Positions 7,755 to 64,000 of a DNA stretch of 64,000 nt are shown here, in pieces (the first letter of the stretch is position 1; each line of letters begins with the position of its first letter). The notes under the pieces were generated by a model that had not been told where the DNA came from, ran no database searches, and saw only the letters and a program-made list of their open reading frames with translations. The DNA comes from Actinomycetes bacterium (GTDB lineage Bacteria > Actinomycetota > Actinomycetes > Nanopelagicales > Nanopelagicaceae), in NCBI GenBank assembly GCA_025363635.1, contig JANYDL010000040.1, forward strand, positions 1 to 64,000, read 5' to 3'. Position numbers and translations under genes: made by a program.

Positions 7755-8932
7755 GTTCGAATTTAAATAGTCCTGTCATTGCAACTGCCATCCGTACGCC
7801 ATTCGGCAAGTATTTAGGAGGCTTATCTCAGGTCAGACCCGATGACCTTCTAAGTACATTGATAAAAGAATTAATGGGAGCAATAAAAGGGCTGCAACCT
7901 GAATCAATAGACGATGTCATTGTCGGAGATGCTAATCAAGCCGGAGATGACAACCGAAATGTTGCACGTATGTCCTTACTGTTAGCAGGACTCCCAGTTT
8001 CGGTTCCAGGAGTGACTGTAAATAGGTTGTGCGGATCAAGTGCAGAAGCGCTCATCCAGGCTTCGCGGTTGGTGCGATCTGGAGATGCCTCCATGGTTTT
8101 GGCTGGTGGGGTTGAGAGCATGAGTCGGGCGCCTTGGATAGTTGAAAGGTTAGGCGGCCCGGCGTCGGAAGTGCCCGTTTTTAATCAATCTACGGTGGGA
8201 TGGCGGTTAATAAACCCTGCGATGCCGTCAAAATGGACAAGTAGCTTAGGTCGGTGCGCAGAGGTTGTAGCTGAAAATTTTGGAATTAGTCGAGCCATGC
8301 AGGATGAGTGGGCGCTTCGCTCCCACTCATTGGCGGAGAGCGCTTGGAATTCTGGATTCCACTCTGAATGGGTCCTGCCGATCGCGGAGGTAAGAAAGGA
8401 TGAATCGATTCGTCCAGACACTTCGCTGGAGAAACTTTCCGGCCTCAAATCAGCGTTCTCTGAGAACGGAAGTGTTACTGCTGGCAATTCATCGCCTCTC
8501 AATGACGGGGCCACACTAACTTTAATTACAGATGGAGAAAGCGCATCCAGATTGAACTTGCTCCCGATTGGTTCGATAGTTTCTGCGCAAGTAGTTGGAA
8601 CGGAGCCGCATGAGTTCAGCATTGCGCCCGTTTATGCAATCCAAAAGCTATTAAAGAAACAGGGCTTGAGTATCAGTGACATTGATGTATGGGAAATAAA
8701 TGAGGCATTCGCTGCCATGGTGCTTTCCGTGCTTCACGAACTTCCGGAAATTGAGATTGCGAAGGTGAATGTGAACGGTGGAGCAATTGCTCTTGGTCAT
8801 CCGGTAGGGGCATCTGCGGCTCGCGCAGTGATCGACTGTGCTCGTCAATTGAAGCGACAGGGCGGCAGGTATGGAATTGCAGCTGCTTGCATTGGAGTTG
8901 GCCAAGGAATAGCGGTTCTCGTCCAAAATTAA
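7751..8932 (+). CDS. Thiolase, PcaF-like (3-oxoadipyl-CoA/acetyl-CoA acyltransferase)
   Basis: A 393-residue degradative thiolase that cleaves a 3-oxoacyl-CoA with CoA. The nucleophile is Cys94 in NRLCGSS. The C-terminal motifs INEAFAAM, GGAIALGHPVGASAAR and ACIGVGQG are intact. The segment ANQAGDDNRNVARM and the VGWRLINPAM stretch resemble PcaF/PaaJ beta-ketoadipyl-CoA thiolases more than acetoacetyl-CoA thiolases (recognition by eye). The GTG start overlaps the cupin stop. A two-subunit CoA-transferase at 21.5-23.1 kb could supply its substrate. The true acyl chain is uncertain. Confidence 0.85.
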   Translation: MSSNLNSPVIATAIRTPFGKYLGGLSQVRPDDLLSTLIKELMGAIKGLQPESIDDVIVGDANQAGDDNRNVARMSLLLAGLPVSVPGVTVNRLCGSSAEALIQASRLVRSGDASMVLAGGVESMSRAPWIVERLGGPASEVPVFNQSTVGWRLINPAMPSKWTSSLGRCAEVVAENFGISRAMQDEWALRSHSLAESAWNSGFHSEWVLPIAEVRKDESIRPDTSLEKLSGLKSAFSENGSVTAGNSSPLNDGATLTLITDGESASRLNLLPIGSIVSAQVVGTEPHEFSIAPVYAIQKLLKKQGLSISDIDVWEINEAFAAMVLSVLHELPEIEIAKVNVNGGAIALGHPVGASAARAVIDCARQLKRQGGRYGIAAACIGVGQGIAVLVQN

Positions 8933-8959
8933 CGACGAGGCAACGAACGCTGTAAGCAA

Positions 8960-12540: not shown

Positions 12541-12589
12541 TGCTATTTTTACATGTCTGGATATTTAAGGAAAAGTGGAGGAACGTGAA

Positions 12590-51423: not shown

Positions 51424-54413
51424 CACTCTTGATAGAACCTGACTACGGGACACCAGCGAGCAAGAGAGATGAAAAGGTAACTGTAGATATAGACGGGAAG
51501 AAGTTAACGATTCCTGCCGACACCTCAATCATGAGGGCCGCCTCTATGGCAGGAATCTCCATTCCAAAATTGTGTGCGACCGACCGGCTTAAGGCCTTCG
51601 GTTCATGCAGATTATGTGTAGTTGAAATTGAGGGACGAAATGGGACTCCTTCATCATGTACGACGCCCGTGGCCGAAGGCATGAAGGTAAAGACCCAGAC
51701 TCCTCGTATCGATCGAATTCGACAAGGAGTGATGGAGTTGTATCTCTCCGACCATCCTGCGGAATGTGCGGTAGGAGATGAGTGTGAAGTTCATGCAATG
51801 GCAACTCGTGTCGGGCTCAAAAGCGTTCGTTATGCAGGTCAGACACATCTGGCGATCGCTAAAGATGAATCTAATCCGTATTTTACATTTGATTCGACAG
51901 AGTGCATCGTCTGTAATCGATGTGTACGCGCCTGTGATGAGGTCCAGGGAACATTTGCGCTAACGATTGAAAATCGTGGCTTTGAAGCGAGAGTCTCCGC
52001 TTCGGGTACCTCATTTATTGAAAGCGAATGTGTCTCTTGTGGTGCCTGCGTTCAGGCTTGCCCAACAGGGGCTCTTACTGAAAAAACGCTTCTAACGATT
52101 GGTGCACCGACGAGAACCGTTCTCACAACCTGTGCCTACTGTGGCGTCGGCTGTACCTTCAAGGCTGAAATGCGCGGAAATGAATTGGTTCGAATGGTTC
52201 CGTTCAAAGATGGGGGAGCAAACGCAGGACATTCCTGCGTGAAAGGCAGATTCGCATGGGGATATGCGACCCATGACGATCGAATCACAATGCCGATGGT
52301 AAGAGAGAAAATCACAGATCCTTGGAGGCAGACCTCCTGGGAGGAGGCAATTGCTTACGCAGCGAGATCGCTAAAAGGGATTCAGAAAAAACATGGCATA
52401 AAGAGCATCGGCGGTATAACTTCCTCCCGTTGCACCAATGAAGAGGTATATGTCGTACAAAAAATGATTCGCGCAGCATTTGGCAATAACAACGTTGATA
52501 CGTGCGCTCGCGTTTGTCATTCACCAACCGGGTATGGTTTGAACCAAACTTTTGGAACGTCGGCAGGGACGCAAGACTTTGAATCTATTGAACACTCGGA
52601 CGTCATTCTCTTAATTGGTGCCAATCCGACCGCCGCTCATCCTGTCTTTGCTTCTCGAATGAAACAAGTCCTTCGTAAAGGCGCTCAACTCATCGTCGTA
52701 GATCCCCGTGCCATAGAACTCGTTAAAACTCCACATATTGAATCAACCTTCCATCTCCAACTATTGCCTGGGACGAATGTCGCAATTATCAACGCACTTG
52801 CGCATGTCATAGCCGAAGAGGGCTATATCGACCGTGAATTTGTCAACGCTCGTTGTGACATGAAGTCATTTTCTGCTTGGGAAGAGTTCATTCGCTTGCC
52901 AAGCAACAGTCCAGAGGCGCTCGAATCGGTAACGCGTGTTCCCGCGGAGAAAGTACGTGAAGCTGCGCGTCTTTACGCCAGTGCAAATAACGCTGCCATT
53001 TATTATGGCCTAGGCGTAACAGAACATAGCCAGGGCTCAACAATGGTGATGGGCATTGCAAATTTAGCGATGGCCACGGGAAATATAGGGCGTCCAGGTG
53101 TCGGAGTAAATCCACTCCGAGGCCAAAATAACGTCCAAGGATCTTGCGATATGGGTTCTTTTCCTCACGAACTACCTGGGTATCGACATATCTCAAATCC
53201 TCTGACGCGTGAGATTTTTGAAAAGATTTGGGGCAGAACCATTAGTGCTGAACCGGGACTTCGAATTCCTAACATGTTTGATGCAGCCATGAATGGAGAT
53301 TTCAAAGGGATTTATATACAAGGAGAAGACATTGCCCAATCTGATCCTAATATTTCGCACGTGCACGCAGCTCTTGGCGCCATGGAAATGGTGATTGTGC
53401 AGGATTTATTCCTCAACGAGACTTCAAAATTTGCCCATGTTTTTCTCCCCGGCACTTCGTTCTTGGAAAAAGACGGAACTTTCACGAACGCCGAACGAAG
53501 GATTAATCGTGTTCGCCCGGTTATGCCTTCTCGCACTGGAAAGTCAGAATGGGAAGTTACGTGTGATCTTGCGCGGGCAATGGGTTATGAAATGAATTTC
53601 GAATCAGGTGCTTCCATCATGGATGAAATTGCTGCGACGACACCGACCTTTGCGGGTGTTTCTTTCGCAAAGCTAGATGAAGCCGGCAGTTTGCAGTGGC
53701 CCTGCAACGATGCAGAACCAGAGGGAACACCCATCATGCACGTCGATCACTTTGTGAGAGGTGAAGGTCGGTTCATGGAGACCCCCTTTGTGCCTACGGA
53801 TGAAAAGGCGACAAGAAAATTTCCTTTATTGCTGACAACGGGACGCATCTTGAGTCAGTACAACGTGGGTGCTCAAACAAGACGAACTGCAAATGTGATT
53901 TGGCATGCAGAAGATATTCTTGATATCCACGAATCAGATGCGGAAATGCGCGGGATTACCGATGGTTCTTGGGTGCGTCTTTCTAGTCGAGTAGGAGAGA
54001 CCGTTCTTAAAGCACGCATTACCGATGAAGTACCTGCTGGAGTGGTCTATACAACTTTTCATTTTCCTGAAAGTGGGGCCAACATCATCACAACCGATTA
54101 TTCAGATTGGGCAACGAATTGTCCCGAATACAAGGTGACTGCCGTTGAGATTGCTCCAAGTCTGCAAGGGCCGACGACTCTTCATCTGCAAGGTGCCCAT
54201 GGTGATGTTCAACTCGAATCAATTATTCGTATGGCAAATCAAATAGCCGCAAATGTGCCCACGCACGCTGCTCCCGAGTTAGCGATTGCTCATCATTTTG
54301 TGCAGTTCTGGTCTCCAGAAATGCGAGAGCGCCTACACAATGAGGTAGATAAGTCCAGGCTGTCGGCCTTGGTTCTCAAAGCGCTGGAATTGGAATCTAG
54401 TCCAGCAAAGTAA
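51420..54413 (+). CDS. fdsA: NAD-dependent formate dehydrogenase alpha subunit (Mo/W-bis-MGD)
   Basis: A 997-residue catalytic subunit. An N-terminal [2Fe-2S] domain has Cys 52, 63, 66 and 80. A NuoG-like motif follows (His112, Cys116, Cys122). Two ferredoxin clusters come next (ECIVCNRCVRACD and ECVSCGACVQACP), then a TCAYCGVGC cluster and the molybdopterin domains. The active-site Cys366 followed by His367 is in CARVCHSP, so this is a Cys, not selenocysteine, enzyme. It oxidises formate to CO2. The His-ligated cluster motif lacks one Cys compared with the usual H-x3-C-x2-C-x5-C. The 3' end overlaps the convergent DUF1638 gene by 17 bases. No fdhD-like maturation gene is nearby. Confidence 0.93.
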   Translation: MTLLIEPDYGTPASKRDEKVTVDIDGKKLTIPADTSIMRAASMAGISIPKLCATDRLKAFGSCRLCVVEIEGRNGTPSSCTTPVAEGMKVKTQTPRIDRIRQGVMELYLSDHPAECAVGDECEVHAMATRVGLKSVRYAGQTHLAIAKDESNPYFTFDSTECIVCNRCVRACDEVQGTFALTIENRGFEARVSASGTSFIESECVSCGACVQACPTGALTEKTLLTIGAPTRTVLTTCAYCGVGCTFKAEMRGNELVRMVPFKDGGANAGHSCVKGRFAWGYATHDDRITMPMVREKITDPWRQTSWEEAIAYAARSLKGIQKKHGIKSIGGITSSRCTNEEVYVVQKMIRAAFGNNNVDTCARVCHSPTGYGLNQTFGTSAGTQDFESIEHSDVILLIGANPTAAHPVFASRMKQVLRKGAQLIVVDPRAIELVKTPHIESTFHLQLLPGTNVAIINALAHVIAEEGYIDREFVNARCDMKSFSAWEEFIRLPSNSPEALESVTRVPAEKVREAARLYASANNAAIYYGLGVTEHSQGSTMVMGIANLAMATGNIGRPGVGVNPLRGQNNVQGSCDMGSFPHELPGYRHISNPLTREIFEKIWGRTISAEPGLRIPNMFDAAMNGDFKGIYIQGEDIAQSDPNISHVHAALGAMEMVIVQDLFLNETSKFAHVFLPGTSFLEKDGTFTNAERRINRVRPVMPSRTGKSEWEVTCDLARAMGYEMNFESGASIMDEIAATTPTFAGVSFAKLDEAGSLQWPCNDAEPEGTPIMHVDHFVRGEGRFMETPFVPTDEKATRKFPLLLTTGRILSQYNVGAQTRRTANVIWHAEDILDIHESDAEMRGITDGSWVRLSSRVGETVLKARITDEVPAGVVYTTFHFPESGANIITTDYSDWATNCPEYKVTAVEIAPSLQGPTTLHLQGAHGDVQLESIIRMANQIAANVPTHAAPELAIAHHFVQFWSPEMRERLHNEVDKSRLSALVLKALELESSPAK

Positions 54414-55029
54414 GTATTTCTCTTTCAAGATTCTCTTCGCCAACGAGAATGGAAGTGAGAGGGAGGCCGATAAGGGCAGCAGCATTTTGAGCAAGTTCCT
54501 CTAATTCTAGAGATGGGTTTTGAGACAGCCAAAGCACCTGAGAATAGTTCTTAAAATAATCGTCGCGAAGTTCTGGATAGCGATCAAGACCTAGCTGGAC
54601 AATCACGTTTTGATAAAAAGTTCGTGCGAGAAAATCGGTGAGTAGGTAAGTCCCAGCATCTTTCTTCATGATGTCCGCAATTTCGTTCTTGCCGGCAAAA
54701 ACGTCATAGCAATGGTTGCCGCCCAAGCGAAAAACCCCATATCGGACCAACACTTCATCCAAGGCCCCGTAAGTTCCACAGTCGGAGTAAGCCACTCCAA
54801 TCTTTTCGAATTTTCCTTGAATTTCTGCAAGGACCTTTTCGACCTCGATGGAAATTTCTTTGGGGCTGTTGTGAAGCAAAGATGGCAAGGAGAAGACCTG
54901 TACCGCCATACCACGATTTGCGACAATTTTCTCAATATGAAAGGAGAGAGCCCCACAGGAAATAATGGCCCTGCCCGCGATGCGGATTGAACTACCGGGG
55001 GAAGGCAAGGCGTTCCACAAACTTGTCAT
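54397..55029 (-). CDS. DUF1638-type protein
   Basis: Start tentatively at ATG 55029, overlapping the gene before it by 38 bases; the conserved part begins IAGRAIISCGALS just downstream and no start lies closer than a TTG. The product has about 210 residues. VAYSDCGTYGALDEVL, RLGGNHCYDVFAG and GTYLLTDFLARTFYQNV match my recollection of DUF1638, whose members often sit beside corrinoid methyltransferase genes. Conserved Cys in SCGALS, DCGTYG and NHCYD could bind a metal. Last gene of the corrinoid operon. Molecular function unknown. Confidence 0.75.
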   Translation of the reverse strand: MTSLWNALPSPGSSIRIAGRAIISCGALSFHIEKIVANRGMAVQVFSLPSLLHNSPKEISIEVEKVLAEIQGKFEKIGVAYSDCGTYGALDEVLVRYGVFRLGGNHCYDVFAGKNEIADIMKKDAGTYLLTDFLARTFYQNVIVQLGLDRYPELRDDYFKNYSQVLWLSQNPSLELEELAQNAAALIGLPLTSILVGEENLEREILTLLD

Positions 55030-56812
55030 TGAAATCTGCTCTGTCAGAGAGCTCGACGTAGGCAATCTCATCGAGAAGTGCAGTGGCACCGTGACGTTCT
55101 TGTGCTGAGAGCAGAACCATTTTCGCTCCCTCTCCCGCAACATTGCCGGCTGAGACAATTCTCATCACCGAAATCTTCGGCACTAGCCCAATCTTGATTG
55201 CAGAAGATGGCGAGAGATAAGAACCAAATGAGCCGGCTAAGAGGACTTGCTGGATATCTCTTTCTTCCAGATTGAATTCTTCTAGTAAAAGTGCCCAACC
55301 CGTGGCGATTGCAGCCTTGGCAAATTGCAATTCACGTACATCTCTTTGCGTTAAGAAGATGGAATCATCGAGATTACCTTCTTCAGAGCCCCAGTCTAGT
55401 ACGAAGATTCGTTCACCTTCTCTGTGGCACAGTCGGGAAGCGAGTGAGGGAGCGACGGATTGTGCAACATCATCTGTGACGAAACGTCCGCTATGGTCGA
55501 GTAGTCCAATCTGCACAAGGACTGCACAAGCATCGACCAATCCTGATCCGCAAATACCAATTGCCGGTGAATCTTCGATCGTGCCTATCACTAGTACACC
55601 ATCGACAATTTTCACTGTTTCAATCGCGCCCGATGCTGCACGTACTCCGCACTTTATAGATGCAGCCTCAAATGCAGGACCAGCGGGGGCTGCGGTAGCC
55701 AAGATCTTCGTGCCATCACCGAGAATAATTTCACAATTTGTGCCAACATCAATAAATAGACGTAGTCGCTTGTCGCGGTCCATGCCAGATGCCAGGGCTC
55801 CCGCGATGATATCGCCCCCCACATAGGCGCCAAGGGAGGGAAGAATGATTGCCTTTGCTTGAGGATGGAGATCTAATCCAAGTTCAGTGGCCGAAACATC
55901 GGGAAATTCTGCGCTCGCCATTATGAAGGGAGCGACACCGAGTGGCTCCGGATCTACACCCAAGAGTAGTTGGACCATTGTTGCGTTGCCTGCAAGAGCG
56001 ACTTCATACACGTGAAGTGGATTGATGTTGGCTTCTTCGCAGACTTCTCGCGTCAATTGGGCCAAGGTGTCTTGAGCAAGCACGCGCAATCGACCTAAGG
56101 CGCTAGGGTCTAGCATCGTTGCACTTATTCTCGTGATTACATCAGCGCCAAAAGGTTGTTGTTTGTTAAGCATAGATTTGACTGCAAGAGGTGTACCTGC
56201 ATTTAAATCCAAGAGAGTCGCCACGACCGTAGTGGTTCCTAAATCGTAAGCAATTCCATAACGTGAAGATGTTGTGTCACCAGCTTCAATGCCGATGAAT
56301 TCTTGATCAATGAAAACAGCGGTGACTTTGAAATGAGATGCTCGCAACATGGTAGGTAAATCGCGAATAGCAGGTAGCGAAAAAAAAGCCTGTATATCTT
56401 CTACGGCATCGAGCACTCGTACTATGTCGGTCCGTTGATCGTGCAAGGTTGGTTCCTCGAGTTCGATGTATCGTTTTTGTACAGCCGGACGAAGGATGAC
56501 CTGTCTTCCAACCCCCACGGTGGCGGCTTTTGGCCGAGTGGTAAGAGCCGGCACACGCATGGAAATATCTGAAGTGGTTCGCACCAAACATGCCAGTCGC
56601 CAGCCGTCAACAATGTCACTTTGCGTGAATGCTCTCAAATCTAGTTTTGCTGGAGGAACATCTCCAGTCGTTATTTGAATCTTGCATTTCTTACATGTTC
56701 CATATCCTCCGCAGGTGGAATCTATTGCGATGCCGTTCCAAGAAGCTGCATCAAATGCGCTCACGCCGGTCGGAACCGTGATGATCTTTTCGATACTGCT
56801 TGAACCATCCAA
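54992..56812 (-). CDS. Corrinoid activation protein (RACo/RamA-like, DUF4445/ASKHA)
   Basis: A protein of at least 606 residues. The N-terminal [2Fe-2S] domain has Cys 34, 40, 43 and 75 (STCGGYGTCKKC, then RLACL). A linker leads to an actin-like ATPase fold (GIAYDLGTTTVVATLLDLN, FIDVGTNCEIILG, GICGSGLVDA, VLLAGSFGSYL). Such proteins reduce oxidised Co(II) corrinoid back to Co(I) at the cost of ATP. TTG 56812 is the first usual start, yet the likely first strand (GRVKLSITSLELDG) begins upstream in frame back to a stop near 56929, and that stretch has no ATG, GTG or TTG. A rare start (CTG, ATT or ATC) is possible. Confidence 0.88.
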   Translation of the reverse strand: MDGSSSIEKIITVPTGVSAFDAASWNGIAIDSTCGGYGTCKKCKIQITTGDVPPAKLDLRAFTQSDIVDGWRLACLVRTTSDISMRVPALTTRPKAATVGVGRQVILRPAVQKRYIELEEPTLHDQRTDIVRVLDAVEDIQAFFSLPAIRDLPTMLRASHFKVTAVFIDQEFIGIEAGDTTSSRYGIAYDLGTTTVVATLLDLNAGTPLAVKSMLNKQQPFGADVITRISATMLDPSALGRLRVLAQDTLAQLTREVCEEANINPLHVYEVALAGNATMVQLLLGVDPEPLGVAPFIMASAEFPDVSATELGLDLHPQAKAIILPSLGAYVGGDIIAGALASGMDRDKRLRLFIDVGTNCEIILGDGTKILATAAPAGPAFEAASIKCGVRAASGAIETVKIVDGVLVIGTIEDSPAIGICGSGLVDACAVLVQIGLLDHSGRFVTDDVAQSVAPSLASRLCHREGERIFVLDWGSEEGNLDDSIFLTQRDVRELQFAKAAIATGWALLLEEFNLEERDIQQVLLAGSFGSYLSPSSAIKIGLVPKISVMRIVSAGNVAGEGAKMVLLSAQERHGATALLDEIAYVELSDRADFNDKFVERLAFPR

Positions 56813-56897
56813 TTCCAGGGAAGTAATGGAAAGCTTTACTCGACCTGTGCCATCATGATCGGGAACAATCGGATCGAAAGCCTTTTCGCGCGCGATG

Positions 56898-57773
56898 CTA
56901 AGCCCCTGACTCTGCAGCAGCTTTGGCTGCTTCTAGAGCACGGAAGCGACTGATCCAATTCCCACCCCAAGGATCCAGGCCGAGCAATAAATCGGTCGCA
57001 CGTACTGCTTCGACAATGTTCGCAGTTCTGGCATCCATCACCGCGCTCGTTAGTCCATGTGACATAGCCGCAGGTAGGAAGGCCGCGTTAACTGCATGTC
57101 GATATGGCAGTCCGAATGAAACATTCGAAGCACCGAGAGTCATATTTAGCCCCCATTTTTCGCGAATCAAATAAATGGTTTCGAGTGTAATTTTTACCGC
57201 CTCAGGATCGGCCCCTACCGTCATCGCTAGAGGGTCGATGACAAGATCCTCGAGCGGAATTCCATATTTCTCAACTGTTCTCACGATCTTTTCCGTGATC
57301 ACCATTCGTTCTGCCGCTGTCGCAGGAATTCCCGTTGCATCATTGGGCAATGCGATGATGACTGCTCCATGTTGCTTGATCAGAGGAAGGATGAGTTCCA
57401 TCCGCTCTTCTTCGCCAGTGACGCTATTTACTAAGGCTTTACCCTGATATGTCTCTAGACCCACTTGAAGCGCTTCAATGATTGATGAATCAATGCAGAT
57501 CGGAAGATCCGTTAGGGATTGGATTTCTTTTATGGCTCTGCCGAGAAGTGCTGGCTCGTCCGTGAGGGGGACCCCCATGTTCACGTCCAGCACATCTGCC
57601 CCGCCATTGACTTGTTGCTCAATGTCAATCGCTAATTGAGATAGATCGTTTGCTCGCAGTTGCGCTTGAAATTTCTTACGTCCTGTTGGGTTGATTCGCT
57701 CACCGATAATGCAAAATGGTTGATCATGCCCAATCGTGACTGTTTTGGTGGCGGACTTCAGAACGGTATGCAT
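56898..57773 (-). CDS. mtgA: Methyl-THF / methylcorrinoid methyltransferase (pterin-binding, MtgA-like)
   Basis: A 291-residue TIM-barrel pterin-binding protein of the MeTr/AcsE/MtgA group. FCIIGERINPTGRKKF, ADVLDVNMGVP, PICIDSS and LGASNVSFGLPYR are the pterin-site motifs. In glycine-betaine demethylation MtgA moves the methyl group from the corrinoid protein to THF. It lies between metF and the corrinoid activator with all other parts present, which supports that direction here. AGGAG lies 7 bases before the ATG. Dihydropteroate synthase is excluded by the GERINPTG and SNVSFGLP motifs. Confidence 0.9.
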   Translation of the reverse strand: MHTVLKSATKTVTIGHDQPFCIIGERINPTGRKKFQAQLRANDLSQLAIDIEQQVNGGADVLDVNMGVPLTDEPALLGRAIKEIQSLTDLPICIDSSIIEALQVGLETYQGKALVNSVTGEEERMELILPLIKQHGAVIIALPNDATGIPATAAERMVITEKIVRTVEKYGIPLEDLVIDPLAMTVGADPEAVKITLETIYLIREKWGLNMTLGASNVSFGLPYRHAVNAAFLPAAMSHGLTSAVMDARTANIVEAVRATDLLLGLDPWGGNWISRFRALEAAKAAAESGA

Positions 57774-57792
57774 TGAGGGCTCCTAAGTGGGT

Positions 57793-58701
57793 TCATGGTT
57801 GCAACTTCTGACGCGGTGTTCTTCCAAGATCTCGCATAAGTCTTTCTAAGGTGTCGTCGTGGCGAAAGTCAGCGATGTGAAGTCCTCGAACATTGGGTTG
57901 AGCAAGTGCATGTAAAGATTGTTCCAGAGTTAATCGGTATGCGGCCTCGCCCTGATCAGAACTTCCCTCAACTCGGTCAATTAGTTCTTGGGGTATATCG
58001 ATTCCCGGAACTTTCTCATTCATAAATTTCATGCCTCGTGATCCGTTGAGAAGTACCACGGTCGGGAGTAGATGCATTTTGGGAACTAGTGTTGCAACGC
58101 CAGAGCAAAACTTTTCTAAGCGGTCTTGATGAAAGCAAATCTGCAATTGAAGAAATTTGGCTCCTGCACGAAACTTTTTGAGAGTTCTCTCGACTCGATA
58201 ATCAAAAGGTGGAGCTCCAGCATTTTCTACTGCTCCAATGTAAAACTGGGGTGCGGGCGAGATTTTACGACCGGAAAGGTAGGTGCCATGTGAAAGCGAT
58301 GAAGCCACGCTTATTGCTTGAGGAGCGTCAAGATCAAAGACTCGACGAGATTCAGGTTCATCTCCTGCAGTCACATCATCGCCGGTCAGAAGAGAAAGAT
58401 TTTCAATTCCATGCAGCGCCGCTCCCATCATGTCTGCTTGAATCGCCAGTCGGTTTTTATCACGACAGACAATCTGCATAATGGGTTCTAAGCCTTGCTC
58501 TTTAATCGCTATAGCCACGGCCATATTAGAAGCATGAGCGTGAGCGGCTGGGTTATCTGTTGCATTAACTGCGTCAAACCAAGGCGAAAGTCGTTGCGCA
58601 GTTGCGATCACCTTCTCCATTCCTGCGCCATCGATCGTCGCAAATTCTGAGGTGTATACATGCCTCGAATCTCCCTCTAGTAATTCTTGAAGACGAGACA
58701 C
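57793..58701 (-). CDS. metF: Methylenetetrahydrofolate reductase
   Basis: A 302-residue MetF TIM-barrel enzyme. YTSEFATIDGAGMEKVIA, VNATDNPAAHAHASNMAVA and SLLTGDDVTAGDEPESRRVFDLD are typical, as is QLQICFHQDRLEKF near the flavin and pterin sites. It starts at a GTG 2 bases after metV. Housekeeping MetF reduces methylene-THF; here, with a betaine methyltransferase supplying methyl-THF, oxidation to methylene-THF is expected (inference). Confidence 0.9.
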   Translation of the reverse strand: MSRLQELLEGDSRHVYTSEFATIDGAGMEKVIATAQRLSPWFDAVNATDNPAAHAHASNMAVAIAIKEQGLEPIMQIVCRDKNRLAIQADMMGAALHGIENLSLLTGDDVTAGDEPESRRVFDLDAPQAISVASSLSHGTYLSGRKISPAPQFYIGAVENAGAPPFDYRVERTLKKFRAGAKFLQLQICFHQDRLEKFCSGVATLVPKMHLLPTVVLLNGSRGMKFMNEKVPGIDIPQELIDRVEGSSDQGEAAYRLTLEQSLHALAQPNVRGLHIADFRHDDTLERLMRDLGRTPRQKLQP

Positions 58702-58703
58702 TT

Positions 58704-59087
58704 TTACTCACCAACACACTGATCTGCGATGTTCCAACCTGCTGGCACTTGTCGATCTCGGCGAGTGACCAGATTGATCCACGAAGAAGTTCCTTTAAGT
58801 CGCATATCCACTGGAGGGCGCAGTTCGTTGTAGTGATCCCGCCATGCCTGGGGAAGTGGAAGCGATTCTTTTCGCTCGTAAGCCTTAGCCCAGACGCACT
58901 GCATCTCAGGATTGACTTCGCAATTGCCGTCTTCTCGTACCCCGCCGCATGGACCGTTTCGAAGAGTTTTTGGACATGTCATTGGGCAAGTCATTCCTGT
59001 TGAATGCAATACGCATTGCCCGCACATTCTGCAATCCCAAATGGGTTGTTTGATCGCGTGTTCAATTATTGGAAGGAGTTTTGGCAT
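58704..59087 (-). CDS. metV: MetV-like Cys-rich partner of MetF
   Basis: A 127-residue protein with many cysteines: DCRMCGQCVLHSTGMTCPMT, CPKTLRNGPCGGVREDGNCE and MQCVWAKAYER. This is the methylene-THF reductase C-terminal (MetV) family, known from acetogens as a partner of MetF that carries an iron-sulfur cluster or Zn. It is placed directly before metF. Its presence suggests a MetVF complex that uses an electron partner other than NAD(P)H alone. Confidence 0.88.
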   Translation of the reverse strand: MPKLLPIIEHAIKQPIWDCRMCGQCVLHSTGMTCPMTCPKTLRNGPCGGVREDGNCEVNPEMQCVWAKAYERKESLPLPQAWRDHYNELRPPVDMRLKGTSSWINLVTRRDRQVPAGWNIADQCVGE

Positions 59088-59094
59088 CTATGTG

Positions 59095-59754
59095 TTAGAC
59101 CGAAGCGCGCTGTTTCTTAATTAATTCTTTAGCCAACCGCACAGCTGTTGATGCATCCGCCGCGTAACCATCAGCACCGACCGCATCGGCATATTCCTGT
59201 GTTACAGGAGCACCGCCCACCATAATGATGAGTCCTTCTCTCAGTCCCGCTTTCGTTATTTCATGGATATTCACTTTAAACATTGGCATTGTGGTTGTAA
59301 GAAATGCGGACATTCCAAGAATGTCTGGCTTATGTTCTGCAATTGCGGCTACAAATTTCTCGGGAGCAACCTGCACCCCCAAATCAATGACATTAAATCC
59401 AGCGCCTTCGAGCATAATATTGACTAGATTCTTCCCAATATCGTGAACGTCACCCTTAACGGTGCCCATCACAAACGTTCCCACGGTTTCTGCCCCAGTA
59501 TCAGCAAGGAGTGGTCGTAGAACATTGAGAGCACCTGCCATTGCTTTTCCGGCGATTAACATTTCTGGAACGAAGTAGTCGCCTCGTTCAAAACGAGACC
59601 CAACTTCTTCCAGTGAAGGAATAAGAGCCTCAAAAAGTATTGTGTCTGGACCCATGCCAGAAGCAAGCGCCTCTTGAGTAAGTGCTAGAACTCTAGGCGC
59701 ATTGCCGAGAAGAGTTTCGTCATAGAGTCCTTTGATAATTTCATCATGCGTCAT
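59095..59754 (-). CDS. mtgC: Corrinoid (B12-binding) methyl carrier protein, MtgC/MtbC-like
   Basis: A 219-residue protein. An N-terminal helical cap (DEIIKGLYDETLLGNAPRVL, then EALIPSLEEVGSRFERGDYF) is followed by a cobalamin-binding Rossmann domain. Asp102-x-His104-x-x-Gly107 in GDVHDIGKN holds the axial cobalt ligand His104. MVGGAPVTQEYADAVGADGY is the nucleotide-tail region. It accepts a methyl group from the MttB-family protein and gives it to MtgA. It overlaps the IclR stop by 4 bases (ATGA). Confidence 0.93.
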   Translation of the reverse strand: MTHDEIIKGLYDETLLGNAPRVLALTQEALASGMGPDTILFEALIPSLEEVGSRFERGDYFVPEMLIAGKAMAGALNVLRPLLADTGAETVGTFVMGTVKGDVHDIGKNLVNIMLEGAGFNVIDLGVQVAPEKFVAAIAEHKPDILGMSAFLTTTMPMFKVNIHEITKAGLREGLIIMVGGAPVTQEYADAVGADGYAADASTAVRLAKELIKKQRASV

Positions 59755-60518
59755 GCTGCGCCCACCTTTTTCTCATCATCGGTATGTGCTCGATCAATTT
59801 CCGAGATAATCAAATTGCCTATCTCTCTAAATTGTTTTGCGGTAAGACGTGGAGAAGGCGCTGAAATTGAAATGGAACCTAGGATCATTCCATCCGTCTC
59901 CCTTATTGGAGCCGCAATCGCCACCAAACCTTCTTCTAATTCATCATCGATCGTGGCATAACCTTGACGACGTACTACTTCTAGTTCTTCAAGTAGTCGC
60001 GCGCGAGAGGTAATACTTTTTGGTGCGCGTTTTTCCAATTTACCAGCCGGAATTTTTACCGCGCCATAGGCAAGGAGCACCTTGCCTAATGCCGAACAGT
60101 GGTAGGGAACGTTTGCACCAATCCAATTGGTAGCGCCCAATAAATAGCGACCATCTACTTGGTCGATGAGTTCGACAAAACCATTTCCTGCAATAGCGAG
60201 ATTGGCTGTCTCGCCTGTTTTCTTCGCTAGGGATTCGAGTATCGGTCTCATCCGTGTGACAAGATCTAGTTCTTGATTTCTCTGCCTCGCAAATCGATTG
60301 ATCACCGGACCTGAAAAGTAGGCACCTGTCTTATCTCGCTTGATCAACCCCTGTCGTTCAAGCGCTGCGAGAAGTCTGGATGTTGTGCTCTTGGGTAATT
60401 CGTGAGCGCTCGATAACTGGCTCAATAGTGGCGGATGATCCGCTTCTAAAATGTGAATGAGAAGTGAGCTAGCTCGATCAATAGCTTGAACACCACTAGG
60501 GACCGATTCCTTCGCCAA
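59751..60518 (-). CDS. IclR-family regulator of the corrinoid operon
   Basis: Start chosen at TTG 60518, with GGAGG 7 bases upstream on the minus strand; an earlier in-frame TTG at 60536 precedes that site. The product has 255 residues. Winged helix: LSSAHELPKSTTSRLLAALE. Effector domain: ALGKVLLAYGA, then YATIDDELEEGLVAIAAPI. It is first in the operon with the corrinoid genes and divergent from the methyltransferase gene. A perfect palindrome lies between them. Its ligand may be betaine or a product of it (inference). Confidence 0.9.
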   Translation of the reverse strand: MAKESVPSGVQAIDRASSLLIHILEADHPPLLSQLSSAHELPKSTTSRLLAALERQGLIKRDKTGAYFSGPVINRFARQRNQELDLVTRMRPILESLAKKTGETANLAIAGNGFVELIDQVDGRYLLGATNWIGANVPYHCSALGKVLLAYGAVKIPAGKLEKRAPKSITSRARLLEELEVVRRQGYATIDDELEEGLVAIAAPIRETDGMILGSISISAPSPRLTAKQFREIGNLIISEIDRAHTDDEKKVGAA

Positions 60519-60541
60519 GACAGGACCTCCGCTCAATTCGC

Positions 60542-60566
60542 AAGTGTTCCATAATATGGAACACTT
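60542..60566. promoter_or_regulatory. Perfect palindromic operator, probable IclR site
   Basis: Arms AAGTGTTCCAT (60542-60552) and ATGGAACACTT (60556-60566) are perfect inverted repeats around AAT. The TTCCA/TGGAA arms resemble known IclR-family operators. A TATTCT -10-like element at 60584-60589 would put the -35 in the right arm, so binding could control the methyltransferase promoter as well as the regulator's own. Confidence 0.8.
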
Positions 60567-60624
60567 GTTCCACGTTCTTAGCGTATTCTCGGAACCGTCT
60601 CAGGTCAATACATCGGAGGTCCAT

Positions 60625-62064
60625 GTGTTTAAGAATCGAATGCCTCGTTACGAGATTATGAGCGAGGAATCCATGTCGGTGCTCGACGCGGGCTGGCGTC
60701 GTATTGTTTCTGAAATTGGAATCGAGTTCATGAGCCCATGGGCGCTAGAAGTTCTGCGCGAAGCTGGTCAAACCGTAGAGGGCGACAACGTCAAGTTTGA
60801 CCCGGATTGGATTGTTAAACAGATTGCGAAAGCGCCGCAGGAATTTGATCTGCGTGCACGCAATCCACAGCACAATGTCCATATTGGTGGCGACTCAATG
60901 GTATTCGGCGGGGTATATGGACCGCCTTTCGTCCGCGAAGGAAGTGTGCGACGCGATGCAACTTTTCAAGACTATGAGAATTTTTGCAAACTTGCACAAT
61001 CATTTGACGCCCTCGACAGCGTCGGTGGAGTGGTCTGCGAGCCAAATGATCTCTCACTAGATTCTCGTCACCTCGACATGGCATTTGCAGCGGCCACGTT
61101 GACTGACAAGTTCTTCATGGGAAATGTTGTCACCGCTGAGAATGCAAAAGACGTCATTCGAATGGCTGAAATTCTTCACGGAGGTCGATCAGCGATAGAG
61201 GAAACTCCCGCTTTGATATCTCTCATCAATTGCAATTCTCCCCTTCGCTGGGATGATCGCATGTTGGATTCGCTACGTGAATATGCGATGGCTGGACAAC
61301 CGGTGGTTGTCACTCCGTTTTTGCTGATGGGCGCAATGAGTCCAGTGACAATTCCTTCGACGCTCGCTCAACAAATTGCCGAGGCTCTTTCGGGTATCGC
61401 GTTGGTACAACTCTTGCGACCCGGTGTGCCGGTCGTATTCGGTTCATTTCTTTCAAATATCGATATGCAATCTGGATCCCCTCAATTTGGAACACCTGAA
61501 TCAGGAATTGGACTTCTCTGCACGGGTCAAATCGCTCGTCATTTCAAGTTGCCTTTTAGAGGAGGCGGAGGTCTCAATTCATCGCAGACCGTAGATGCTC
61601 AATCTGCATATCAAACGATGATGACGATGATGCCCACATTTTTAGCAGGTACAAACTGGGTGATGCACACAGCTGGTTGGTTAGAAGGCGGACTCGTCTC
61701 CTCATATGACAAATTCATTCTGGACGTTGAGATTTTGCAATCGTTGATGGTGGAATTTACGCCCCTAGAATTTACCGAGTCTTCATTGGCCTTCGATGCT
61801 CACCTTGAGGTTGGACACGGTGGGCATTTCCTAGGTGCCGCTCACACGATGGATCGATTCCGCGATTGCTTCTATCGCCCCTTCCTCACAAATAGCGATA
61901 ATTATGAGCGCTGGACGCGGCTTGGTGCACGAGATACGAGAGCACGTGCTGAGGAGATTTGGAAGAAGAAATTGGAAGATTACGTCCTGCCCGAGATGGA
62001 CCCACAAATTTTAGGTGAATTGACTGAATTTGTCTCCATGCGGAAGAGTCAACTCGATGGTTAG
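60625..62064 (+). CDS. mtgB: MttB-family methyltransferase, non-pyrrolysine (glycine betaine MtgB type)
   Basis: Start chosen at GTG 60625, which has GGAGGT 4 bases upstream; the frame is open to 60544, inside the operator. The product has 479 residues with no in-frame stop, so it needs no pyrrolysine. MPRYEIMSEESM, LDAGWRRIVSEIGIEFM and the later MDRFRDCFYRPFLTN match the family. MtgB in Desulfitobacterium moves a methyl of glycine betaine to a corrinoid protein. The neighbours here (corrinoid protein, MtgA, activator, dimethylglycine dehydrogenase, ProV-like ATPase) favour glycine betaine over trimethylamine, proline betaine or carnitine, which homologues also use. Confidence 0.9.
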   Translation: MFKNRMPRYEIMSEESMSVLDAGWRRIVSEIGIEFMSPWALEVLREAGQTVEGDNVKFDPDWIVKQIAKAPQEFDLRARNPQHNVHIGGDSMVFGGVYGPPFVREGSVRRDATFQDYENFCKLAQSFDALDSVGGVVCEPNDLSLDSRHLDMAFAAATLTDKFFMGNVVTAENAKDVIRMAEILHGGRSAIEETPALISLINCNSPLRWDDRMLDSLREYAMAGQPVVVTPFLLMGAMSPVTIPSTLAQQIAEALSGIALVQLLRPGVPVVFGSFLSNIDMQSGSPQFGTPESGIGLLCTGQIARHFKLPFRGGGGLNSSQTVDAQSAYQTMMTMMPTFLAGTNWVMHTAGWLEGGLVSSYDKFILDVEILQSLMVEFTPLEFTESSLAFDAHLEVGHGGHFLGAAHTMDRFRDCFYRPFLTNSDNYERWTRLGARDTRARAEEIWKKKLEDYVLPEMDPQILGELTEFVSMRKSQLDG

Positions 62065-62088
62065 CGCGCAATGAGCGTGGGAAGTTTG

Positions 62089-63582
62089 ATGGCTGCGACT
62101 TTGTTTATCGACGGGAAGTGGAGAGCATCGTCTGCTGGCCGAATCCACGAAGTGAGAAGTCCTCATGATGGCTCTCTCGTCACAACCGTTGACGAAGCTA
62201 GCGCGGCCGATGTCGAAGACGCGATAGATGCGGCGAGAAAATCATTTGATTCGGGAGTTTTTGCTTGCTGGAGTTGGAGAGAAAGAAGTGAATTAGTCGG
62301 AAGAATTGCAGATTTACTTGAACGTGATGCCAAACTCATCGCCAAAAAAGAAAGTGACGATACAGGGAAACGTTTAATAGAGGCAGAATACGATGTCGCC
62401 GATGTGGTTGCTACCTTTCGACATTTTGCCGCCCTTGGTGAAAAACATGACGATCATATAGTCGATGTTGGTTTAGCACATGTAACGAGTCGAATCGTTA
62501 GTGAACCTATTGGCGTTTGCTCGCTTATTGGTCCTTGGAATTACCCACTATTGCAAATTGCTTGGAAAGTTGCGCCCGCCTTGGTTGCTGGCTGTTCATT
62601 CATTCTTAAGCCGAGTGAGTTGACTCCAGAAAGTGCGATTCACTTGATGCAGCTCGTTGAGGAGGCCGGAACTCCACTTGGTGTGGCTAATCTAATTCTT
62701 GGACCGGGATCTGTTGTCGGGTACGCGCTCACCACAGATCCGCGCATTGACATGGTTTCATTTACTGGGGGATTGAGTACGGGTAAAACGATTATGGTCG
62801 GTGCTGCGCCCACGATAAAGAGATTAGCTCTCGAGCTCGGCGGAAAAAATCCACATATTATTTTTGCTGATGCTGATCTTGAGGCCGCAATTGATAACGC
62901 AGTTACCGGTGCCTTCCTGCACTCGGGCCAAGTTTGTTCTGCGGGTACACGGTTGATTGTTGAGCGTTCAGTTCACGATCAGGTAGTTTCAGAGATAGTG
63001 AGAAGAGCAAAGGAAATTCGATTAGGCGGACCCGAAGATTTGAGCGCCGAAACTGGTCCATTGATTAGTCAAAGCCATTTCAAGAGCGTCGAAAATTACG
63101 TGGCAAAAGGTGTAGCAGAAGGTGCTCGACTGCTGGTTGGCGGGGTGCGTGCGAATCGAGAAGACCTCGTCAATGGTTGGTATTTCTTGCCCACCGTGTT
63201 CGATGGATGCACGACGGATATGTATTGCGTACAAGAAGAATCATTTGGACCGATTATGACGGTGGAAGTTTTTGATTCAGAAAGAGAAGCGATCGCTCTA
63301 GGAAACGACACAATTTTTGGTCTCTCAGGAGGTGTATGGAGTCGCGACCTCGAAAAAGCTGCACGCGTTGCAGCCGGCCTTCGACACGGAACGATCTGGG
63401 TGAATGACTATGGTCCATATCGTCCTGCGGCCGAATGGGGCGGCTATAAACAATCGGGTAATGGTCGGGAACTTGGATCCCACGGTTTATCCGAATACCT
63501 TGAAATAAAGCATATTTGGACCAACAATTCACCTAGTAAATCAGGTTGGTTTCATGATTCATCAGGGGGAGATGTCCAATGA
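62089..63582 (+). CDS. Aldehyde dehydrogenase, betaine-aldehyde type
   Basis: Start chosen at ATG 62089 with GGGAAG 5 bases upstream; ATG 62071 has no ribosome site. The product has 497 residues. Glu249 in LELGG and Cys283 in SGQVCSAG are the catalytic pair; [17 protein letters not shown] is the cofactor region. The [13 protein letters not shown] start and [18 protein letters not shown] end fit betaine aldehyde dehydrogenases. It would turn betaine aldehyde (from choline) into glycine betaine for the methyltransferase 24 bases upstream. 4-Trimethylaminobutyraldehyde dehydrogenase is an alternative. Confidence 0.85.
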
Positions 63583-64000
63583 GCACCCTCGAGCCTATGA
63601 TCTCCGTGCGCAACTTATGGAAGGTCTTTGGTTCGAACCCTGAAGGAGTAATTGGATCCTCTGATGCACAACTTTCTCGAACCCAGCTGCGAGCAAAGAC
63701 TGGCAACACCATTGCCGTCCGGGATGTTTCCTTCGATGTAGCACCTGGGGAAGTTTTCGTGGTGATGGGGCTTTCGGGATCTGGAAAATCAACTCTTGTC
63801 CGATGCATGACCCGTTTGATTGAACCGACTCGTGGCGAACTAAGACTTCAAGGTGAAGACATTGTGAAGGCAGACGCCAGGAGGCTTCGTGAACTTCGCA
63901 GAACACGTTTTTCGATGGTCTTTCAACATTTCGGCCTATTGCCACACCGTCAAGTGATAGACAACATTGCTTATAGTTTAGAAATAAACGGAGTAGGGAA
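63579..64000 (+). CDS. Quaternary-amine ABC transporter ATPase, ProV/OpuAA-like (3' truncated by window)
   Basis: The frame runs off the window with 140 residues visible. Walker [10 protein letters not shown] is at residues 64-72 and the Q-loop is [12 protein letters not shown]. An N-terminal stretch before the ATPase core (WKVFG...) and [23 protein letters not shown] are typical of glycine-betaine/proline transport ATPases. The ATG overlaps the aldehyde dehydrogenase stop by 4 bases, so uptake and breakdown are co-expressed. The CBS part expected at the C-terminus and the permease lie outside. Confidence 0.9.

Follow-up and report, generated by a model that had tools for sequence, protein, structure and literature searches.

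The window, i.e., the whole stretch of 64,000 nucleotides analyzed from a genome of the Nanopelagicaceae, carries near its end two divergent operons that encode parts of one pathway. The minus-strand operon opens with iclR (59751–60521), an IclR-family regulator by its Pfam matches to HTH_IclR (39.6 bits, cut-off 22) and IclR_C (116.1 bits, cut-off 24), which begins with a TTG after GGAGG where relatives have ATG. The second gene of the operon codes for an MtgC-like corrinoid protein (59095–59754; best NCBIfam family MtgC, at a score below the cut-off), and the remainder codes for a DUF5981 protein, an MTHFR-like protein, a pterin-binding methyltransferase and a RACo-like corrinoid activase (54992–59087), in an order kept in relatives. 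The activase gene is followed by a DUF1638 gene (54397–55158), and a similar protein also follows the activase in the more distant locus L127.

On the plus strand lies mtgB (60625–62064), which starts with GTG after GGAGG or with ATG at 60640 and codes for an MtgB-like methyltransferase of the MttB superfamily. The GTG at 60544, where the listed open reading frame begins, was rejected as the start: it lies inside the predicted operator, and GTG 60625, where relatives align, is preferred. The protein is a member of the MTTB family (611 bits in Pfam) with an open frame under table 11, without pyrrolysine, and matches the glycine betaine methyltransferase of PDB 9yce at E 8e-120; this match and the neighboring genes suggest that it acts on glycine betaine. 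Downstream on the same strand come a betaine-aldehyde-dehydrogenase-like gene and the start of a ProV-like ABC ATPase (62071–63998), and further along what look like genes for a ProVWX-like transporter and for an enzyme resembling choline dehydrogenase, the last ones being named by eye from translations. One genome (G014, locus L067) has a second IclR paralogue, 34% identical, between mtgB and the aldehyde dehydrogenase gene (8245–8940). Elsewhere, the window codes for a collagen-like Gly-X-Y repeat protein (685–2016) and a second IclR-family regulator (at 12575), in whose preceding 135 bases there is no GTTCC/GGAAC dyad.

The palindrome and the three-box site

Between the divergent start codons, TTG 60521 (minus) for iclR and GTG 60625 or ATG 60640 (plus) for mtgB, sits a palindrome, as a sequence-only reading of this DNA had proposed. 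That reading described it as spanning 25 bp at 60542–60566 (AAGTGTTCCATAATATGGAACACTT), with 11-nt arms and a 3-base center; these letters are indeed palindromic with no mismatch, but the extent was understated, because the outer two center bases pair and one extra outside base also pairs. The full feature is a perfect 27-bp palindrome at 60541–60567, with 13-nt arms around a 1-nt center (A): CAAGTGTTCCATA-A-TATGGAACACTTG, i.e., CAAGTGTTCCATAATATGGAACACTTG. No other perfect palindrome with a spacer of 0–3 nt in the window has arms >9 nt. In 100 dinucleotide-preserving shuffles of the window, the longest arm was 12, so that 0/100 equaled the 13-nt palindrome, and arms of at least 11 with a spacer of at most 3 appeared at a mean of 0.11 per shuffle. 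A search for copies at many unrelated loci, which by the same reading would have spoken against it, returned this copy only: the 19-mer core is single-copy at up to 3 mismatches in the whole 1,851,636-base (1.85-Mb) genome, and the sampled family genomes without the cluster have no near-exact copies of the site. A second inverted repeat (60523–60538 and 60607–60622) is present because iclR and mtgB carry a near-identical ribosome-binding stretch (GGAGGTCC) on opposite strands.

The palindrome makes up two thirds of a larger conserved unit, a predicted three-box operator, GTTCCA-N5-TGGAAC-N4-GTTCCA, at 60546–60572. Its boxes alternate in direction: box 1, GTTCCA (60546–60551, plus); box 2, inverted and reading TGGAAC on the plus strand (60557–60562, minus); and box 3, GTTCCA (60567–60572, plus), which repeats box 1 in the same direction 21 bp, or two helical turns, away. 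Box 2 is common to two dyads, whose centers at 60554 (boxes 1–2) and 60564.5 (boxes 2–3) lie 10.5 bp, i.e., one helical turn, apart. For the IclR family, a group 1 consensus GKTYCRYW3-4RYGRAMC and a group 2 consensus TGRAACAN1-2TGTTYCA have been published, and three-box sites are on record for PcaU, PobR and HmgR, with predictions covering 32 orthologous groups (PMC8222616). Boxes 1–2 (60546–60562, GTTCCATAATATGGAAC, parsed as GTTCCAT-AAT-ATGGAAC) conform to the former and boxes 2–3 (60557–60572, TGGAACACTTGTTCCA, parsed as TGGAACA-CT-TGTTCCA) to the latter. By the published consensus, the predicted site is thus an IclR-type operator with the "three alternating boxes" architecture. The IclR-type operator suggested earlier is upheld by this consensus and by the way in which the site tracks iclR; the palindrome is, however, not the whole site, and box 3 had been missed.

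Conservation and the association with iclR

Among 201 sampled genomes of the family, 39 have an IclR orthologue (54–100% identity). In all 39 loci iclR is divergent to mtgB, and the order of the corrinoid and C1 genes is the same as far as the contigs reach. Boxes 2 and 3 are invariant in the aligned intergenic stretches (39/39), above the palindrome's left arm, and box 1 is exact in about 32–33 of the 39. The box columns hold a mean of 1.95 bits of information versus 0.60 elsewhere in these loci, the remaining intergenic region being largely scrambled. Arms >10 nt occur in 1 of the 39 aligned loci, namely that of the source genome, whose long symmetry is owed to a chance complementarity between the N4 linker and the bases to the left of box 1; long perfect symmetry is not kept in relatives. 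This pattern indicates that selection keeps the three boxes and not the long palindrome.

The same site recurs in 15 further family loci from the order search and in the contig-edge locus G020. At no more than one mismatch, it is present in 38 of the 39 iclR genomes and in G020, all with the mtg cluster, the exception among the 39 being G004, with a site at 3 mismatches. The 161 sampled family genomes without iclR and a site-bearing mtgB have no site closer than 3 mismatches; matches at 3 mismatches appear in 13 of them and none in the rest. The three-box site, as defined by its sequence, hence co-occurs with the neighboring iclR across genomes.

Beyond the family, IclR homologues of 41–54% identity retain the box 2–3 dyad together with the recognition helix LPKST[TA]SR: all three boxes are found in L120 and L127, and the box 2–3 dyad in L121 and L126 and in L125 and L128. 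Loci L122–L124, with homologues of 40–41% identity and the helix VHKATASR, have no such site. Of particular bearing is L126 (genome G406), wherein iclR, mtgC, the methyltransferase, the activase and mtgB all lie on one strand, with mtgB downstream of iclR, an upstream gene in the same direction and no divergent gene. Its site is a two-box one: box 1 is degenerate and the box 2–3 dyad is kept, 7 nt after TTGACG-N17-TAGAAT. In this one locus, the dyad is retained without a divergent mtgB and therefore follows iclR rather than mtgB, as would be expected under autoregulation. By the same token, control of mtgB in L126 need not use a divergent promoter, and conservation of the site alone is thus no proof of mtgB control.

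A wider regulon was considered and set aside, about half of the other inspected pattern matches in cluster-bearing relatives falling inside coding frames. In L133 (G149:C2:3696), L134, L135 and L136, a cysteine-synthase-like gene is closely preceded by box-like palindromes (GTTCCACTTTATGGAAC and weaker); this site was not counted as part of the regulon because the exact 17-mer is also found in G143, which has no iclR match.

Predicted promoters and the proposed mode of control

For iclR, a predicted -10 element TACGCT (60580–60585, minus; TACNCT in 38/39 loci) stands 17 nt from a predicted -35 element TTGACC (60603–60608, minus; TTGAC or TTGC at 17–18 nt in nearly all loci). The predicted start site lies near 60573, on the border of box 3, which begins seven bases after the -10. 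For mtgB, the predicted -10 is TATTCT (60584–60589, plus; TAT..T in 39/39 loci), with a predicted start near 60596; no -35 hexamer is visible in any of the 39 loci, and the position that one would occupy lies between boxes 2 and 3. The two -10 hexamers overlap with a TA common to both (AGCGTATTCT), and the predicted divergent starts (60573 minus, 60596 plus) are 23 bp apart. Counted from the predicted mtgB start, the operator spans approximately positions -51 to -25, and the distance from box to -10 is fixed at 8 nt across the 39 loci, with 7 in one clade. A simple sigma-70 promoter scan returned no element above threshold, and the promoter elements therefore rest on conservation.

From the sequence of the site, its conservation, its tie to iclR and its position relative to these promoter-like elements, we infer, with a probability of roughly 0.8, that the adjacent IclR uses the palindrome within a three-box operator, and that from this one site IclR would both repress its own operon and control mtgB. 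A dimer on boxes 2–3, with its dyad over the predicted iclR start, would block transcription of the iclR operon; given that all lineages in which the site was found have this dyad where iclR transcription is predicted to begin, autorepression is the best-supported step. Boxes 1–2 would form a second dyad, using box 2 in common. With the operator lying over the mtgB -35 region, the same IclR most likely also sets mtgB expression, either by blocking polymerase or by activating from upstream, and a metabolite of betaine breakdown presumably alters its binding. The earlier suggestion that one site could act on both strands at once agrees with this geometry: one bound protein would touch the predicted promoters of both divergent operons, and the entire pathway could be governed from one site.

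Two forms of this control may be distinguished. In the first, possible at somewhat less than even odds, IclR would be a dual regulator like PcaU, the ligand-bound protein activating the -35-less mtgB promoter while repressing iclR. This form is favored by the three-box sites reported for PcaU, PobR and HmgR, of which PcaU requires the third box for binding (PMC8222616), and by an mtgB promoter that is without a visible -35 in any locus and yet has its -10 in 39/39, at a fixed distance from the boxes. However, the fixed distance is also seen in L126, with no divergent mtgB, and so may reflect the iclR side alone; moreover, sequence cannot tell repression from activation, which leaves the sign of control at mtgB unreadable from it. 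In the second form, equally probable and in line with the earlier suggestion, IclR would be a pure repressor that covers both promoters when free and, on meeting its ligand, frees both operons together. The operator's span over the iclR start site and the mtgB -35 region, and the shared pathway of the two operons, fit such joint release, but taken alone it accounts neither for the missing -35 of mtgB nor for the retention of three boxes, and not two, in divergent loci.

A further elaboration, which we regard as unlikely, is a toggle: dimers on boxes 2–3 (iclR silenced) and on boxes 1–2 (mtgB governed) would be mutually exclusive via box 2, over mutually exclusive -10 elements. If true, one site would set the ratio of two half-pathways instead of switching them jointly. 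Use of the site by a regulator other than the adjacent IclR is quite improbable: the exact IclR consensus, the co-occurrence with the adjacent iclR gene, the dyad kept beside iclR in L126 without a divergent mtgB and the match in recognition helix all argue against it. Least credible is an RNA element in the iclR leader (attenuator, terminator or riboswitch). The operator would be transcribed into the 5' leader of iclR, where it could pair, but comparison with Rfam gave no match at E values up to 1, the region has no terminator-like stem with a T-run, and there are 0 compensatory changes at pairs of invariant box columns, in which each base is conserved individually, as it would be in a protein site.

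With control of both operons assigned to the adjacent IclR, corrinoid-dependent betaine demethylation in lake and related actinobacteria gains a predicted regulator and a predicted exact operator; no published IclR-type regulator of this process was found in the literature searched.

Relation to known systems

The overlapping -10-like elements on both strands would place the intergenic region with the bidirectional promoters, a class defined by divergent starts 7–25 bp apart. It resembles those described by Warman et al. (2026, PMC12825309) in its TA-sharing -10 pair and its 23-bp start spacing, one of the common spacings of 10, 18 and 23 bp (PMC12825309), and differs from them in that the starts here are predicted, not mapped, and the host is an actinobacterium. 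The genes themselves parallel the aerobic MtgBCD system of betaine demethylation (PMC12478193), with which they have in common the MttB-family methyltransferase, corrinoid protein, methyltransferase, MTHFR paralogue and reactivation module. In contrast to that system, the cluster here is actinobacterial, and one of its operons opens with iclR; IclR is not mentioned in the text of PMC12478193.

As for the regulator, its best-scoring curated families in NCBIfam are BhcR and PcaR/PcaU/PobR, and membership was rejected for both (136.2 bits versus a cut-off of 350, and 116.4 bits versus 284.75, respectively). The closest parallel to its predicted operator is seen in the three-box operators of the IclR family (Suvorova and Gelfand 2021, PMC8222616), i.e., those of PcaU, PobR and HmgR, with the same type of half-site, the same alternation of boxes, one pair of group 1 and the other of group 2, and a position close upstream of start codons. 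The half-site here is GTTCCA as against GTTCGA in PcaU, and the pathway encoded alongside is that of corrinoid-dependent betaine demethylation as against that of aromatics, neither betaine nor methyltransferase being mentioned in the main text of PMC8222616. The same boxes in two orientations, with boxes 2–3 kept when the divergent gene is lost, would offer a natural test of the alternative dimerization proposed for the IclR family. Thus, the type of site is one already known, whereas its probable target pathway, betaine demethylation, is new.
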